A stretch of DNA of 64,000 bases from Oscillatoriaceae cyanobacterium M7585_C2015_266 (GTDB lineage Bacteria; Cyanobacteriota; Cyanobacteriia; Cyanobacteriales; Oscillatoriaceae). Both the position numbers and the translations under genes were made by a program. The stretch covers positions 1 to 64,000 of the forward strand of contig DVEG01000027.1 in NCBI GenBank assembly GCA_015295835.1, read 5' to 3'. This document shows, one piece after another, positions 3,910-47,276 of the stretch (within the stretch, counting starts at the first letter, position 1; the number at the start of each line of letters is the position of its first letter). Below the pieces are notes generated by a model. It was not told where the DNA came from. It did no database searches and saw nothing but the letters and a program-made list of their open reading frames with translations.

Positions 3910-4265
3910 TCATATTTTCTTCTTTTCCGCTGTCAGGCAATCAAACAGCAGTTCAACTTGTGTATCATTAACCTGTTGAGCCTTGAATTGATAAATTAGT
4001 CCTAGAATTTCAAGAGAATGAGCTAAATCTTTTTTAAGGCGTTTATCTTTATTTTTTTGCTAATGATTGACCACACTGGCAACGGAATTTTCAAAAGTTA
4101 TAGCTTGAAAGTTTGCTTTAGTAAAAGTAAAAGCTGCATGATGCTAGATTTGCCCGAACTATTGGCACCGGCAAGGATGGTGAGCGGAGGTATTTCAATA
4201 TTATACTCTTTGTATAGAGAATTGTAGCCATGCTTTTTTATTTTAGAAGAAGTAGGTTTGGGCAT
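3910..4265 (-). pseudogene. AAA-type ATPase fragment (Walker A only)
   Basis: The minus strand from an ATG at 4265 reads MPKPTSSKIKKHGYNSLYKE, then IPPLTILAGANSSGKSSIMQ, which is a good Walker A box (G-A-N-S-S-G-K-S-S) of the SMC/AAA_21-like ATPases. An in-frame stop follows after about 68 codons, and coding-like sequence resumes as KRLKKDLAHSLEILGLIYQF to a stop at 3910. Walker B and the rest of the ATPase are absent, so this is a deletion remnant. Confidence 0.6.
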
Positions 4266-21837: not shown

Positions 21838-21910
21838 TAAGGAACCGCCCGAACGATGGTCCGGGCGGAGTGTGGTGTGAGGAGTGAACGGAAACATGCG
21901 TCTCCGCTTC
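21838..21910 (-). ncRNA. yfr1: Yfr1 small regulatory RNA
   Basis: On the minus strand the sequence reads a 5' hairpin (CGGAGACGCATGTTTCCG), then a single-stranded region with the invariant Yfr1 core CACTCCTCACACCACACT, then a 3' terminator hairpin CCGCCCG...CGGGCGG (21845-21868) and TTCCTTAA. This order of two hairpins around an ACTCCTCACAC core is the known Yfr1 structure, and Yfr1 lies between trxA and guaB in several cyanobacteria. It base-pairs with target mRNAs such as porins in other species. End positions are estimates. Confidence 0.88.
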
Positions 21911-38914: not shown

Positions 38915-40105
38915 CTAGAAAGGTATGATCTCGACTATTTGCCCGTCAATAATTTGGTATCCCCATTCAGGATGTTCGGCAATTTGCCTTTCTACAAATG
39001 TCTTACCCATAGGGGTTTTGTAGGCTGCCTGTAAAGCAGTAATACTGGGAATTTCGCTGCTAGCTGATTTGTTTTTTTCTTCTTCTATTTCCTGTGGTTT
39101 TAATCTAGTTAAATTAGGAGGTGCTTGAGGGCTTTGGAAATTAATTGCCTCTAATTTCTTTATAACACTTTCTTTGGTTATCGCTGGTTTATCGGTAAAT
39201 GAGGGCGGCAAATAGGGGGCAGTTATTCCTAAATTTTTCGCTTTTAAAGCTTCGTCAGCAATGCGATCGCACTTTCTCAAAAACCCCTCCCACAAATCTT
39301 TCCCCAACACTGGATTCCTTAAATCCGCTCGCGCTTTCGCAACTGCTGCCTCTATCGGCTCTCCTTTTTGAATATAATATTGAATGCGTTCTTCTTCAAA
39401 TGCTGGATATGGCACTCCCGGTTCTATCTCCCACTCCCGCTTGATTTTCTGACTTTCCCCCAGTGGAATTCCGGCTACAAAATCATCCCAAAAACTGGAT
39501 GGCAATCCTTTACTTATACTGTCAATTACTTTAAATGCCCACCCCGACGGATTGCCAAACCCCAGCCCGTTATTTCTGGCATATTCTTCTAAAGCCCTTT
39601 GAAATTCTTTTAACTCTTCTTCGCTCTTCCAAGGGCCACTAAATCGATAATCTGGAGTGACAGCTATTGCAATAGGCTGCCGTCTCTGACCGAAATATTT
39701 GTCGGTTTTTATCTCTCTCCTTCTAGAATTGTTTTCAAATCTTTCTGGGGAGGATTTTTTGCTATTAGTTGTTTCATAGATATTATCCAATATTTTTTCA
39801 AAGTTGTCAAGGTCTAGCAAAAATTCTCTAGTTTCACTAGAATTGTTGACAAAGCGTTCTTGGAGAAGCGATCGCTCTACCAAAATCTGCCTAGCCATTT
39901 CTTGCTCAGTTATACTCAATCCTGTTTGTTTTTCTATTTTATCACTACTTACCTTAATCCAATACTGGCTATTTTTAAATTCCGAATGCCACTGCAAAAG
40001 TTGGCAATAAAAAATACAAGCAGTCACACCGCCCATTGCTGTAGCCAGTTTGGGGTAGTAGGAATAAGAAGGGCCCAAGTTTTGCAAAAATATGCCGAGG
40101 TTCAT
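38915..40105 (-). CDS. Replication-initiator-like protein with a winged-helix N-terminus
   Basis: A 396-residue protein. The first about 110 residues (YCQLLQWHSEFKNSQYWIKV and SSDKIEKQTGLSITEQEMAR) resemble the winged-helix DNA-binding domain of phage replisome organizers and plasmid initiators. The middle is charged and helical, and the C-terminus ends with PMGKTFVERQIAEHPEWGYQ and IIDGQIVEIIPF, the motif shared with the 78-residue neighbour. I cannot assign a function: possible roles are DnaA-independent replication or a relic of a mobile element. It is divergent from the dead rca gene 182 bases away. Confidence 0.5.
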   Translation of the reverse strand: MNLGIFLQNLGPSYSYYPKLATAMGGVTACIFYCQLLQWHSEFKNSQYWIKVSSDKIEKQTGLSITEQEMARQILVERSLLQERFVNNSSETREFLLDLDNFEKILDNIYETTNSKKSSPERFENNSRRREIKTDKYFGQRRQPIAIAVTPDYRFSGPWKSEEELKEFQRALEEYARNNGLGFGNPSGWAFKVIDSISKGLPSSFWDDFVAGIPLGESQKIKREWEIEPGVPYPAFEEERIQYYIQKGEPIEAAVAKARADLRNPVLGKDLWEGFLRKCDRIADEALKAKNLGITAPYLPPSFTDKPAITKESVIKKLEAINFQSPQAPPNLTRLKPQEIEEEKNKSASSEIPSITALQAAYKTPMGKTFVERQIAEHPEWGYQIIDGQIVEIIPF

Positions 40106-40287: not shown

Positions 40288-41513
40288 ATGAGTTATTATA
40301 TTGCTCCCCGCTTTCTAGATAAAGTAGCCATTCACATTACCAAAAACTTTTTAGACTTACCAGGAATCCGAGTTCCCTTGATTCTCGGCATTCACGGGCG
40401 CAAAGGTGAGGGCAAATCTTTTCAGTGTGAACTAATTTTCAAGAAAATGGACATTGAAGTAGTTCAAATGTCTGCTGGAGAGTAAGAAAGCCCAGATGCA
40501 GGGGAGCCGGCGCGGTTAATTCGTCTGCGCTATCGGGAAGCCGCCGAATTAATCAAAGTGCGAGGCAGAATGGCAGTATCAATGATTAACGATTTAGATG
40601 CTGGGGCAGGGCGTTTCGATACAACCACCCAATACACAGTCAATACCCAGTTAGTGAATGGTACATTAATGAATATTGCCGACAACCCAACCAACGTGCA
40701 ACTTCCTGGCAGTTACGACGCCAATCCTATTACCGTGTGCCGATTATAGTAACTGGGAACGATTTTTCTACTTTATACGAGCCATTAATCCGTGATGGGC
40801 GGATGGAAAAATTTTACTGGGAACCCAACCGAGAAGAGAAAATTGGAATTGTTGCGGGGATTTTCGAGCCGGATGGGCTTTCTCGTAGCGAAATAGAGCA
40901 GTTGGTAGATACATTTGTTAATCAACCGATTGATTTCTTCAAAGCGTTGCGTGCGCGGATTTATGACGAACAAATTCGCGAGTTTATCTACCAAGTGGGG
41001 CTTGAAAACGTTTCGTCTCGTGTGGTGAATAGTGTAGAGGGACCTCCTATTTTTCCCAAGCAAAATTTCAGTTTATCACGTTTGATTGAGTTTGGCAAAT
41101 TGCTTGGCGCAAAACAGCAGCGGGTACAGGAAATGCGGCTGGCGAGAGAATATAATCAAGTGCTGCGAGGGCAGCATACAGAACCGGCTAAAAGTAATAA
41201 CAACGGTAATTCTGCAGCCAACGTATCGGCAAGCAATGGCAAAAATTTGCTAAGTGCAGAGATACAAAAACAAGTGCAACAACTACTTGATAGTGGGTAT
41301 AAAATAGGTGTAGAATATGTAGACGAACGTCGATTTTGCACAAATTCATGGAACAGTTGTGCAATAATAACAGCAAATAGCTTTTCTGAAGCGAGCGCAG
41401 CTTTAGAAAATTGCTGAGCGGAACATAGCGGCGATTACGTTCGCATAGTTGGTATTGAACCCAAAGCAAAGCGACGTGTAGTCGAGATAATTATTCAGCG
41501 CCCGAATGGCTAG
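40288..41513 (+). pseudogene. rca: RuBisCO activase with RbcS-like C-terminal domain, inactivated
   Basis: The conceptual protein is a cyanobacterial Rca AAA+ ATPase (Walker [39 protein letters not shown] and [20 protein letters not shown]) with a C-terminal RbcS-like domain, [35 protein letters not shown], then [17 protein letters not shown] and IIIQRP. Three lesions kill it: a TAA at about 40483 where a Leu codon is expected, a frameshift near 40735 and a TGA at about 41415, again at a Leu position. Sequence between lesions is well preserved, so loss seems recent. Confidence 0.88.
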
Positions 41514-41600: not shown

Positions 41601-42155
41601 TTACTTTGGAAAATCAAACTCGGAATGAATATTCCAGCGCTGCCCGTTGTGAAGCAGCAGCGTCAGGTGAGAAGCAGTAAATTCAAACTGTAGCGAGCGC
41701 TCTTTAAATTCAAGCCACGCTGCTTTAAAGTTCGGCTTAGTTAAATCTTTATAAGCAACGGTGACGTGGGGAGAGTAGGGGCGCTGCTGCGAAGAGGGAT
41801 CAACAATATTGAGGAAAGTTTGTAGACGCGCGGATAAATCTGCTTGTAAGCTAAGTAATGCGGGGGTTTTAACGACATTAACATAAATGACGCGGGGGGG
41901 AAAGGCTGCAAAACCAGAAAGAGTGATAGGAAAAGGCGAACGCTCAGCGGCAAACTGGCTTAGGCACTGTTGTAACGTCGGCAAGTTTTCGTCAAGCCAT
42001 TTAAACGGAGGCTGCAGGGTAATGTGGGGAGGAGATTTCAAGGCGGCGCGACTTTGATAGTTGTCGGCAAAATATTGCTTGATTTCGGTGACGCGATCCT
42101 GTATGTCTTGCGGCGGCAAGAGGGCAATAAAATAGAGGCGGCTAGTTTTGGACAT
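41601..42155 (-). CDS. thpR: RNA 2',3'-cyclic phosphodiesterase (2H / ThpR family)
   Basis: A 184-residue protein with the two H-x-T motifs of the 2H phosphoesterases: KSPPHITLQPPF around residue 44 and SPHVTVAYKDL around residue 127. The fold starts LYFIALLPPQDIQDRV. ThpR hydrolyses or ligates 2',5' or 2',3'-cyclic phosphate ends of RNA in the cytosol. Length is normal. Transcribed towards the rca pseudogene. Confidence 0.9.
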   Translation of the reverse strand: MSKTSRLYFIALLPPQDIQDRVTEIKQYFADNYQSRAALKSPPHITLQPPFKWLDENLPTLQQCLSQFAAERSPFPITLSGFAAFPPRVIYVNVVKTPALLSLQADLSARLQTFLNIVDPSSQQRPYSPHVTVAYKDLTKPNFKAAWLEFKERSLQFEFTASHLTLLLHNGQRWNIHSEFDFPK

Positions 42156-42216: not shown

Positions 42217-42483
42217 ATGCCGTGGTTTGTCAAAATTGAAGCGGGCATTGTCGATAAGCCCACTTTCGACAAATATGTTCCCGCTCACAAAGAATATGTC
42301 CGAGAACTGATTGCAAAAGGATATAAAGCGCGGAGCGGCTACTGGGCAGAGCGGGGTGGCGGAATGCTGCTGTTTGAAGCGGCATCAAGAGCAGAAGCGG
42401 AGGCGATAGTGGCTCAAGATCCGTTGGTAAAAAATAATTGTGTCAAATATGAACTTTTTGAGTGGTGTGTTGTTGTGGAATAA
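42217..42483 (+). CDS. YciI-family protein
   Basis: An 88-residue small ferredoxin-like fold protein. It begins MPWFVKIEAGIVDKPTFDKY, has VPAHKEYVRELIAKG and the final AEAIVAQDPLVKNNCVKYEL, all typical of YciI (ligand-binding dimer, HD/H in the first helix). The His in PAHKEYV and the later Asp in QDPLV are probable active-site residues; function in cyanobacteria is unknown. Next to the SRP RNA. Confidence 0.85.
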   Translation: MPWFVKIEAGIVDKPTFDKYVPAHKEYVRELIAKGYKARSGYWAERGGGMLLFEAASRAEAEAIVAQDPLVKNNCVKYELFEWCVVVE

Positions 42484-42504
42484 AAAAATTGTGTTATATT
42501 TGGA

Positions 42505-42604
42505 ATGGCTCGGATCTATGCGATCGCAACGCCCAAACCTTGTCAGGACCGGAAGGTAGCAGCAATACGGGATGCTTGCGATAGGCGTAGTCTCCGGGTC
42601 ACTT
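42505..42604 (+). ncRNA. ffs: Signal recognition particle RNA (small bacterial 4.5S type)
   Basis: A stem-loop of about 98 bases with the SRP core GTCAGGACCGGAAGGTAGCA then GC. The arms, GGCTCGGATC...GGCGTAGTCTCCGGGTC, pair around it and TTTTTT ends the transcript. The HIP1 octamer at 42519-42526 sits in the stem. It binds Ffh for co-translational targeting. Confidence 0.95.
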
Positions 42605-42683
42605 TTTTAACCCACCTTTTAACCCATCCAGCCCTTGCTATGCTGTAATCAGATACTCGTATCCTCAAGGAGCCTCGGTTTCA

Positions 42684-43049
42684 ATGGCTGGTTTAGGAGA
42701 TATTGTTCAAAAAGCATTTTACCTGGGGATTGGGCTTGCTTCGTATGCTGGAGAGAAGGCGGGCTCCACGCTAGCGCAACTACGAACTCAAGCCCAAAAA
42801 CTGGCTGAGGAAATGGTGGCGCGGGGCGAGATGACTACAGAAGAAGCCCGCAAGTTCGTTGAAGAAGTACTTGCCCGTGCCCAACAGCCGCAGGCTCAGT
42901 CATCGAAACAAGAACCTGTCGCAGAACCTCGCCGGATTGAGATCCTCGACGATGAAGAGCCATCCCCTTCAGAGAGTGCAAATGTAGACAGCCTACGCGC
43001 TCAAGTGCGCGCTCTCGAAGAAGAATTGAAGCGGCTACAGCAGCAATAA
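42684..43049 (+). CDS. Phasin-like helical protein
   Basis: A 121-residue protein beginning LGDIVQKAFYLGIGLASYAG, with an amphipathic helix AQLRTQAQKLAEEMVARGEM and a C-terminal coiled coil VDSLRAQVRALEEELKRLQQ. The first part matches the phasin-like/granule-associated family (PhaF/PhaI type), which coats polyhydroxyalkanoate granules, but cyanobacterial members may do otherwise. A hydrophobic patch may bind membranes. Start ATG follows AAGGAGCC. A terminator hairpin lies 18 bases downstream. Confidence 0.65.
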   Translation: MAGLGDIVQKAFYLGIGLASYAGEKAGSTLAQLRTQAQKLAEEMVARGEMTTEEARKFVEEVLARAQQPQAQSSKQEPVAEPRRIEILDDEEPSPSESANVDSLRAQVRALEEELKRLQQQ

Positions 43050-43067
43050 TTAATCTCCTCCACTGAG

Positions 43068-43104
43068 GTGCTGGGTTTCCCCTCAAGCGAGGAGGTGCCA
43101 GCAC
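43068..43104 (+). terminator. Terminator after the phasin-like gene
   Basis: GTGCTGG/CCAGCAC stem with inner CCTC/GAGG pairing is followed by TTTTAT. Confidence 0.75.
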
Positions 43105-43140
43105 TTTTATGGTATTTTACTAAAGTGAGCTTGCACGCTA

Positions 43141-43548
43141 ATGGAAGAGTGGCAAAAAGATTTTTTTGAGATGCTGGAAACAGCTTCTCGCGAAGTTGAG
43201 AAGTTTTTCGAGGAAGTGGGCGAAGAAGTCGCCGAAGTGGTAGAGAGTTTCGTCGAGCTTTCTGAAGAGCTGGCAGAAGAAGTACAAAACAATATTTTCA
43301 ACGGGCTGGAGCAGTTTTTTAATCAGCTAGTTGAGCCAGTTATCGATATTTACATAGAATTAGAACAAGAAGAAGTCAGCCAGCAGGAGATGTTTTGGCA
43401 CTATTCAGAACCGACGGCAGAAAAAAATCCCGCCTGCCGGGGCTGTCAGCATTATCACGGGCAATACTATGGAGGAAATTTGCTAGTCTGCGGAATGCAC
43501 CCCTACGGTTGGGATGGAGAAAATTGTCCCGATTGGGAAGGGTATTAG
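43141..43548 (+). CDS. Conserved hypothetical protein with coiled coil and Cys/His cluster
   Basis: A 135-residue protein. The first about 60 residues form an acidic helix rich in Glu and Val (EEVGEEVAEVVESFVELSEE). The C-terminus carries NPACRGCQHYHGQYYGGNLL, then VCGMHPYGWDGENCPDWE, with four Cys and two or three His suited to zinc or Fe-S binding. The C-terminal pattern C-x2-C-x-H-Y-H-G-Q recurs in several cyanobacterial small proteins, but I do not know a function. It starts 37 bases after the preceding terminator. Confidence 0.6.
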   Translation: MEEWQKDFFEMLETASREVEKFFEEVGEEVAEVVESFVELSEELAEEVQNNIFNGLEQFFNQLVEPVIDIYIELEQEEVSQQEMFWHYSEPTAEKNPACRGCQHYHGQYYGGNLLVCGMHPYGWDGENCPDWEGY

Positions 43549-43634: not shown

Positions 43635-46600
43635 ATGACTGATACTTCTACTGCTAATAACCGCTGGCAATTCTGGATTGATAGGGGGGGTACTTTTACT
43701 GATATTGTCGCTAAACGCCCCGACGGCAAACTGGTAATTCACAAATTACTTTCAGAAAATCCAGAACGCTATTCAGATGCGCCAGTGCAGGGAATTCGAG
43801 ATATTTTAGGAATTCCAGCAGGAGAAGCAATACCAACAGAGTTAATTGCAGCAGTGAAAATGGGAACAACGGTAGCAACAAATGCACTGCTGGAAAGAAA
43901 AGGAGAGCGCGTAGTATTAGCTATTACTAAAGGATTTCGAGACGCGTTGCGCATCGGATATCAAAATCGCCCAAATATCTTCGCCCGTGAGATTATACTG
44001 CCAGAAATGCTCTATGAGCGCGTAATAGAAATAGAAGAACGTTATAGCGCTCACGGAGAAGAATTAATACCCCTAGAAGAGAGTAGCGCGCTCGCTTTGT
44101 TACAAGCAGCATACAATGACGGCATCCGCAGTTGCGCGATCGCATTAATGCACGGCTACCGCTATCCCAACCACGAAAAACGCTTAAAAGCGATCGCACA
44201 AAAAATAGGCTTTACCCAAATATCAGTTTCTCACGAAGTCAGCCCCTTAATGAAACTCGTCAGCCGAGGAGATACCACCGTCGTTGACGCTTATTTATCT
44301 CCTATTCTTAGAAAATATATCGAGCGCGTGGCAAATCAGTTAGGAGCAGTAAACTCCACAACCTCCCCAATCAAATTAATGTTCATGCAATCGAACGGCG
44401 GGTTAGTAGACGCTGAGAAATTCCAAGGTAAAGATAGTATTTTATCGGGACCTGCTGGCGGAATTGTCGGAGCGGTACAAACTTCACGCATGGCTGGATT
44501 GAAAAAAATTATCAGCTTTGATATGGGCGGAACCTCTACCGATGTCGCTCATTACAACGGCGAATACGAACGACAATTCGAGACAGAAATAGCCGGGGTG
44601 CGATTGCGCTCGCCAATGATGGCAATTCATACAGTAGCAGCTGGTGGCGGTTCAATTCTATTTTTTGACGGTTGGCGCTTTCGCGTAGGTCCTGAATCAG
44701 CAGCAGCCAATCCAGGACCTGCTTGTTATCGCAAAGGTGGTCCTCTTACGGTTACAGATTGTAACGTAATGTTAGGGAAAATACAGCCGGAATTTTTCCC
44801 AAAAGTATTTGGTAAAAATGGAGATTTGCCGCTAGATGTTGAAGTAGTGCGGCAGAAATTTGCTCAACTGGCTAAGGAAATAGGCGACGGGCGAGCGCCT
44901 GAACAGGTGGCGGCGGGATTTCTAGCGATCGCAGTTGAAAAAATGGCTAATGCTATTAAAAAAATCTCCCTCCAACGCGGTTACAACATTTCAGAATATA
45001 CACTTTGTTGTTTTGGCGGAGCAGGCGGGCAACACGCTTGTTTAATCGCCGATTCTTTAGGAATAAAACAAGTATTTTTACACCCGTATGCCGGAGTTTT
45101 ATCCGCTTACGGCATGGGTTTAGCAGACGCACGCTCAATTCGTGAACGCTCAGTTGAGCTCCAGTTGGATCAGAAATTAATAACGGAGTTGCAGCAGGTT
45201 TTTGCCGAATTGGAAATTGAGGCTAAAAGAGAATTAAACCACCTAGACGCAGGAGAAGCAAAGAAATTTGAGGTTTGGCGGAAAGTACATCTCAAATATC
45301 AGGGAAGCGATTCAGCGTTAATTGTAGATTTTGGCAGTATAGCAGAAATGAAACTGCGCTTTGAAGAAGCCCACCGACAGCGATATGGGTTCATAATGGA
45401 AGAAAAAGAACTAATTGTCGAGACAGTGTCAGTTGAGGTTGTAGATAAAATGGAGGTGCCGGAAGAGGAAGTAATTTTGAGACGCTCGCCTCAACCAGCC
45501 GCACCTGTTAAAATAGTAAAAATGTATGCTGCAGATGCGTGGCGCGACACGCCAATATTTCAAAGAGATGACTTGCAGCCAGGAGATTGTATTACAGGTC
45601 CTGCTATTATTGTAGAGGCAACAGGTACGAATGTGATCGAATTGGGCTGGCAGGCAGAATTAACTGAGCGTAATCATTTAATTTTGAAAAAACAAGCCGG
45701 GGCCACAGGGGCATCGGTAAGTAGGCAGTATGCGTCTTTACAAAAACCAGAGCCGGTGAGGCTGGAGATTTTTAATAATTTGTTCCGAGCGAGCGCAGAA
45801 CAAATGGGTATCATTTTACAAAATACCGCTTCTTCTGTTAATATAAAAGAACGTCTCGATTTTTCCTGCGCAATTTTTGATCGCCATGGGCAATTAGTTG
45901 CCAATGCCCCCCACATTCCTGTGCATTTAGGCTCAATGAGCGAAAGCGTAAAAGCTTTAATTGATGCCAAAGGTAACAGTATTAAACCTGGAGATGTTTA
46001 TGTTTCCAATAATCCCTACAACGGCGGCACTCACCTGCCCGACATAACCGTGATTACCCCCGTATTTTTTAACGAGCCATCTGCGCCGCTTTTTTACGTT
46101 GCTTCACGCGGGCACCACGCCGATATTGGTGGTATTACGCCGGGTTCGATGCCGCCCAATAGCACAACGATAGAAGAAGAAGGGATATTGCTTGATAATT
46201 TTCTCCTAGTGAGGGAAGGAAAATTTCGGGAGAAAGAATTACTAGAATTGCTGACATCTGGAAAATATCCGGCGCGCAATACTAATCAAAATATAGCAGA
46301 TTTGCAAGCGCAGATAGCAGCTAATGAGCGCGGTGTACAAGAGCTCGTAAAAATGGTAGAGCATTACGGTTTGGAGACGGTGCAAGCTTATATGGGATTT
46401 GTGCAAGATAATGCTGAAGAGGCAGTGCGTCGAGCGATCGATAATTTAAAAGATGGGGAATTTAGTTATCCGATGGATAATGGGGGGAAGATAAAAGTAA
46501 AAATTACAATCAACCGAGAAAATCGCAGTGCTAAAATAGATTTTACAGGCACTTCTTTTCAACTAGCAAACAATTTTAACGCGCCTGCAGCTGTGTGTAA

Positions 46601-47276
46601 AGCCGCCGTGCTTTATGTTTTCCGCACCCTAGTAGATGACGACATTCCTTTGAATGCCGGCTGTTTGAAACCACTGGAAATTATTATTCCGGAAGGGAGT
46701 ATGTTGAATCCGCATTACCCGGCTGCAGTAGTGGCGGGAAATGTGGAGACTTCGCAGAATATTGCCGATGCATTGTATGGAGCACTGAATGCGATCGCAG
46801 CTTCTCAGGGCACTATGAATAATTTCACCTTTGGAAATGAGCGATATCAATATTATGAAACCATCTGTGGCGGCTCTGGTGCAGGAGCAAATTTCGATGG
46901 AACCGATGCCGTACAAACCCACATGACTAATTCCCGTCTCACCGATCCTGAAGTTTTAGAATGGCGCTTCCCCGTGCTATTAGAAAGTTTTTCCATTCGA
47001 GCAAATAGTGGCGGTTTGGGATATCATCGCGGCGGTAATGGTGTCATTCGTCGCATCCGTTTTCTCGAACCGATGACGGCTGCTATTTTATCAGGGCGTC
47101 GCATCATTCCGCCCTACGGATTGAATGGCGGCGGTAATGGTGCTGTAGGGAAAAATTGGGTGGAAAGGAGTGATGGCACTGTAGAAGAGTTAGGCAGCAC
47201 TGCTACTATACAGATGCAAGCGGGGGATGTGTTTGTGATTGCAACCCCCGGAGGCGGAGGGTATGGTACACTTTAA
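43635..47276 (+). CDS. 5-oxoprolinase / hydantoinase fusion (HyuA-HyuB)
   Basis: A 1213-residue protein joining two domains. Residues 1-700 are the HyuA ATPase part, beginning [20 protein letters not shown] and including [29 protein letters not shown] and [12 protein letters not shown]. From about residue 695 the HyuB part follows ([60 protein letters not shown]). This is the layout of ATP-dependent 5-oxoprolinase, which opens 5-oxoproline to glutamate and so recycles glutathione; hydantoinases share the architecture. Long and single-gene. Confidence 0.88.

Follow-up and report, generated by a model that had tools for sequence, protein, structure and literature searches.

An interrupted Rubisco activase gene, very probably a recent loss, in Oscillatoriaceae cyanobacterium M7585_C2015_266

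The window analyzed here, a 64,000-nt stretch of DNA (positions 1 to 64,000 of contig DVEG01000027.1) from Oscillatoriaceae cyanobacterium M7585_C2015_266, contains at 40288–41513 on the forward strand a sequence that can be read as the Rubisco activase gene rca only across several interruptions. This raises the question of whether the organism has lost its activase or whether an intact gene was corrupted during sequencing and assembly, both of which were offered in a preliminary description of the locus. Based on translation, Pfam and phmmer searches of the PDB, the gene comprises an AAA+ Rubisco activase module, a linker and a C-terminal RbcS-like (SSUL/SSLD) domain. Pfam identified the AAA domain (PF00004; 1.8e-6), the Rubisco activase AAA helical domain (PF21228; 3.9e-37; 40830–41117) and the RuBisCO_small domain (PF00101; 3.2e-20; 41244–41504), while phmmer matched the Nostoc Rca structure 6z1d with both the first (E = 8.6e-81) and second (E = 1.3e-58) parts of the gene, and the Rca RbcS-like domain 6has with E = 4.1e-26. 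The Walker A motif (GRKGEGKS; 40396–40419) and the Walker B region (INDLD; 40585–40599) are preserved in conserved columns of our alignment A1. Judged by these matches, the interval is an orthologue of cyanobacterial rca.

The reading frame is broken by a TAA, a 1-nt deletion and a TGA. The first frame opens with the ATG at 40288 (MSYYIAPRF) and runs for 65 codons, including Walker A, to a premature TAA at 40483–40485 (lesion 1), which separates Walker A from Walker B and occupies a conserved position with Leu, or Met in two cases, among the intact relatives aligned. Past this stop the Rca sequence resumes in the unchanged frame as far as SYDANPI at codon 148, ending at 40731. One base is then missing with respect to intact relatives (lesion 2; 40732–40736), outside any homopolymer, and the resulting frameshift is apparent as a two-frame tblastn pattern. 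The remainder of Rca lies in a 226-aa frame that begins with GTG at 40737; this shifted frame holds the open helical domain and continues into the RbcS-like domain, which is cut by a premature TGA at 41415–41417 (lesion 3), again at a Leu position. A further 31 residues follow before the TAG at 41511–41513, the native terminal stop of the ancestral frame. No remaining fragment contains a whole AAA+ core or a whole RbcS-like domain. Thus the coordinates, domains and three lesions given in the preliminary description were borne out, as was its observation that both premature stops fall at Leu codons, since family relatives have Leu at these positions.

The genomic setting indicates that this is the native rca locus, because the genes downstream are conserved and intact copies occur in the family. 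Downstream of rca are an intact 2'-5' RNA ligase superfamily (LigT-like) gene (41601–42155, reverse strand), intact YCII-related and DUF6825 genes with one further small gene (42217–43548, forward strand), and a 1213-aa ORF (43635–47276). The same set follows rca in Oscillatoria sp. PCC 10802 and O. princeps RMCB-10, and is found whole or in part in Microcoleus vaginatus WJT46-NPBG5 and the MAGs UBA11372 and UBA11371. Upstream, a reverse-strand gene of 396 aa without a Pfam match (38915–40105) likewise precedes rca in UBA11372 and UBA11371. In the genomes G001, G003 and G004, rca lies 7–23 kb from rbcS; in M7585_C2015_266 the two are on different contigs. The N-terminal part of the gene is 84–90% identical to family members, and in a phylogenetic tree, which was weakly resolved, the gene was placed near them. 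Genomic place and family phylogeny are therefore both those of an rca orthologue. The preliminary description had called for a search for a second copy and a comparison with relatives. Across the genome (3,979,146 bases; 98.48% complete) no second rca was found, the helical domain PF21228 being matched once, and the other RbcS-like matches belonged to RbcS itself (contig C29) and to three RbcS-like domains of a single open 560-aa CcmM frame (contig C18). All seven other genomes of the family that were searched have one intact rca each.

The timing of the inactivation was assessed with a custom-written two-ratio codon model, the figures from which are rough as the branch is long and its synonymous changes are near saturation. 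Omega was 0.079 on the M7585_C2015_266 rca branch and 0.100 elsewhere, values that do not differ (2dL = 1.13), and relaxed selection along the whole branch was rejected as omega was not raised. A neutral tail on the branch gave no better fit at any value, and the likelihood dropped by 1.75 units for 0.06 neutral substitutions per codon, by 1.9 for about 0.06–0.07 and by 3.7 for 0.10. When the two nonsense mutations were considered jointly, the best neutral value was about 0.03–0.06 on a branch of about 2.8. Because the model leaves room for hardly any neutral evolution along the branch, inactivation would be very recent, falling roughly within the last few percent (roughly 1–2%) of its length. 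The substitution pattern by itself shows no relaxation, the loss being too recent to have left such a trace on the branch, and the case for inactivation therefore depends on the three lesions. Family-invariant positions are altered at 5 of 135 sites (G55D, D73E, T146N, D184E and P259Q), versus 0–4 of 136 in 18 intact controls, and some of these changes occur in intact copies too.

If the lesions were errors of sequencing or assembly and the gene were intact in the organism, an rca still resembling a protein under purifying selection would be expected, as is seen here. Such errors would also suit the number of lesions, which is slightly high for so small a neutral divergence (two nonsense mutations and one indel were observed, where a neutral divergence of 0.05 substitutions per codon would predict ∼0.45 nonsense mutations). 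However, two of the three lesions are substitutions to stops, the rarer class of error, the deletion lies outside any homopolymer, and ORFs of 1341, 1213, 806 and 663 aa stand open in the same window. When ORFs from the rca, rbc and ccm regions of relatives were compared with the genome, a single frame sufficed for each of the hydantoinase-like, LigT-like, DUF6825, rbcL, rbcX, rbcS and ccm genes; at the three loci compared (window, rbc and ccm), rca alone among the orthologues was divided between frames, cross-hits between paralogues aside. Frame flags on the ccmK genes, and likewise on kinase-like genes, were such cross-hits and were rejected as lesions. The sampled coding density of the genome was 0.85 (ten 20-kb stretches) compared with 0.79–0.82 in four relatives; the assembly is therefore not full of frame errors, nor is the genome decaying broadly, and widespread decay with many pseudogenes was rejected as the main cause, despite some degraded fragments at the window's left end (see below). 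The rate of error seen elsewhere would not yield three errors in 1.2 kb, and we consider an artefact unlikely.

Two other readings would leave the gene with a product. Full-length Rca could in principle be made by recoding, with stop readthrough or a suppressor tRNA combined with programmed frameshifting, and the signal of purifying selection over most of the branch and the location of both stops at Leu positions are in keeping with this. The Leu coincidence, though, needs no special cause, since a single substitution turns the Leu codon TTA into either TAA or TGA. Recoding would moreover require that two different stop codons be read through and a frameshift made in a single message, features that none of the intact relatives examined share, and we find it hardly credible. 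It is also very improbable that some fragment continues to be expressed with a useful role, such as that of a Rubisco-binding adaptor for the 226-aa frame. While that frame is uninterrupted and includes the AAA helical domain, its RbcS-like domain is cut ∼31 codons short of its end, the nucleotide-binding core is on other fragments, and no intact relative examined has a separate gene of this kind. Between the two possibilities raised in the preliminary description, the evidence thus favours recent inactivation over assembly error: there is no second rca, the family copies are intact, rca alone is broken among the orthologues compared, and neutral substitutions are almost absent. Very probably, null mutations recently inactivated a single-copy, vertically inherited rca, leaving a pseudogene at an early stage of decay. 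It looks like a unitary pseudogene of a known gene, and the loss looks genuine, recent and rather ordinary.

Cyanobacterial Rca (also ALC) has two reported roles, namely to remodel inhibited Rubisco through its AAA+ activity, threading the RbcL N-terminus, and to bind Rubisco in carboxysomes by means of the RbcS-like domain (PMC9951593, PMC7059596, PMC8787814). Both should be lost in M7585_C2015_266, because none of the fragments could supply either a complete core or a complete RbcS-like domain. The rbcL, rbcX, rbcS and ccm genes are present in intact frames (rbcX with an apparently spliceable group II intron). Rubisco packaging should continue, because CcmM is intact with its three RbcS-like domains. 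The proposed loss of Rca-assisted recruitment or repair is plausible, although CcmM probably still provides recruitment. We therefore consider that activase repair has probably been lost while packaging persists. In such a scheme, null mutations in rca would leave no functional activase, Rubisco would no longer be freed of inhibitory sugar phosphates at the expense of ATP, and condensation of Rubisco into carboxysomes would go on through CcmM. The loss may have been tolerated because the activase is dispensable in some habitats, given the high CO2 inside the carboxysome and the weak binding of inhibitors to carboxysomal Rubisco. This explanation would fit the finding that rca decayed several times independently within the order, and also the compact genome; at 3.98 Mb, and with the coding density given above, the latter stands out in a family of large genomes (6.4–8.6 Mb in well-sampled members).

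The rbc operon of this genome also contains an insertion of 1958 nt (L116 7499–9456, equivalent to G000:C29:10499–12456), located between ATGGATA and TAAAACAAATC of rbcX and splitting this gene after 7 nt (codon 3). The insertion begins with GTGCG and ends with AC, its 3' end matches the Rfam family Intron_gpII (RF00029), and its ORF encodes a group II maturase (GIIM) domain with a weak and partial RT match. Removal of the insertion gives MDIKQIAKDTAK, as in G002 and G003; no inserted sequence was found at the same place in rbcX of G001–G004. Because of the intron-like ends, the RF00029 match, the maturase ORF and the restoration of the relatives' rbcX upon exon joining, the insertion can most plausibly be taken as a group II intron at codon 3. 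The genome has another, shorter piece of related sequence at G000:C7:68466–69089.

Other features of the window include two small RNAs identified with Rfam, the bacterial small SRP RNA (42507–42603, forward strand) and the Yfr1 sRNA (21843–21907, reverse strand). At the left end, fragments of an NAD-dependent epimerase/dehydratase lie in different frames at about 200–500 and 2350–2595 (weak Pfam matches), with two ORFs lacking Pfam matches (523–1200 and 1194–2201) between them, and the interval 1–2600 looks like an older interrupted pseudogene. A short N-terminal P-loop fragment of AAA_15/AAA_21 type (GANSSGKSS) at 4098–4265 on the reverse strand, with nothing after it, is a remnant of an ATPase gene.

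The distribution of rca was surveyed in 391 genomes of the order using a 17-sequence profile (alignment A1), with subsequent examination of partial matches. By a hand count, about 170 of these genomes were without rca altogether. Decayed copies were recognized in four genomes, each of a different family: G143 (L136/L147; family f33), in which residues ∼129–283 are deleted and the frame is changed; G301 (L133/L156; f2), with a frameshift near residue 254, a truncated end and changes at 7 of 127 invariant sites, whose decay looks older than that of the M7585_C2015_266 copy; G167 (L135; f5), with a frameshift and a TAG; and G238 (L134; f18), a 73% complete MAG with several frameshifts and stops. 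Together with the family of M7585_C2015_266, decayed rca is thus known from five families. Individually the four copies could include assembly errors; the copy in the window was checked more closely. Three further candidates (G120, G205 and G268) were rejected because their matches stop at contig ends, and flags of a single TAA, TAG or TGA were discarded as breakage, the flag in G009, G008 and G011 being the terminal stop of a full open frame. Genomes of family f33 without an intact rca were smaller than those with one (medians of 4.35 and 6.1 Mb; 6 versus 65 genomes; Mann-Whitney p = 0.002, a statistic that ignores kinship and uses sizes transcribed by hand). Loss of rca is recurrent in the order, and M7585_C2015_266 is one young instance.

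A patchy distribution of rca was already known (PMC5437159), with the gene reported in over a third of genomes (PMC7059596), and why only some carboxysome-bearing cyanobacteria have an activase has been noted as an open question (PMC5437159). A literature search, judged mostly by titles and abstracts, found no description in these of cyanobacterial rca pseudogenes. We tentatively suggest that carboxysome-bearing Cyanobacteriales may have dispensed with Rca on many independent occasions, with remnants in five families and with loss tending to accompany smaller genomes, and that such lineages are natural knockouts with activase-independent carboxysomal Rubisco. If so, setting them against sister lineages that keep the gene would reveal what replaces the activase or removes the need for it. 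M7585_C2015_266 would be a lineage caught just after the loss, its Rubisco and carboxysome genes having had little time to adapt, and hence a natural knockout beside intact sister species, to which the survey adds four more decaying cases. The understanding of the Rca mechanism is unchanged by this finding.

The closest known counterpart of the interrupted gene is the Rca of Nostoc sp. PCC 7120 (6z1d for the AAA+ part, 6has for the RbcS-like domain), with which it shares domains, domain order and the Walker A and B motifs; unlike that gene, however, the copy described here bears three null lesions and cannot encode a continuous protein. Chloroplast Rca of plants and algae (PDB 3t15, 4w5w) has a homologous AAA+ module, but plant Rca is without the RbcS-like domain, and the gene in the window is non-functional. 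Intact Rca-type genes of 292–296 aa without an RbcS-like domain (L031, L032 and L033, in G028, G037 and G059) are natural architecture variants, and L034/L035 represent a more distant Rca-like AAA+ protein (44–47% identity). The RbcS-like domains of CcmM (PDB 6hba, 6mr1) are homologous to that of rca, yet CcmM is a scaffold protein without an AAA+ domain and is encoded at a separate locus on another contig. The decayed copies in G143, G301, G167 and G238 are likewise remnants, broken by frameshifts, stops or an internal deletion, but their lesions are independent of those in M7585_C2015_266.
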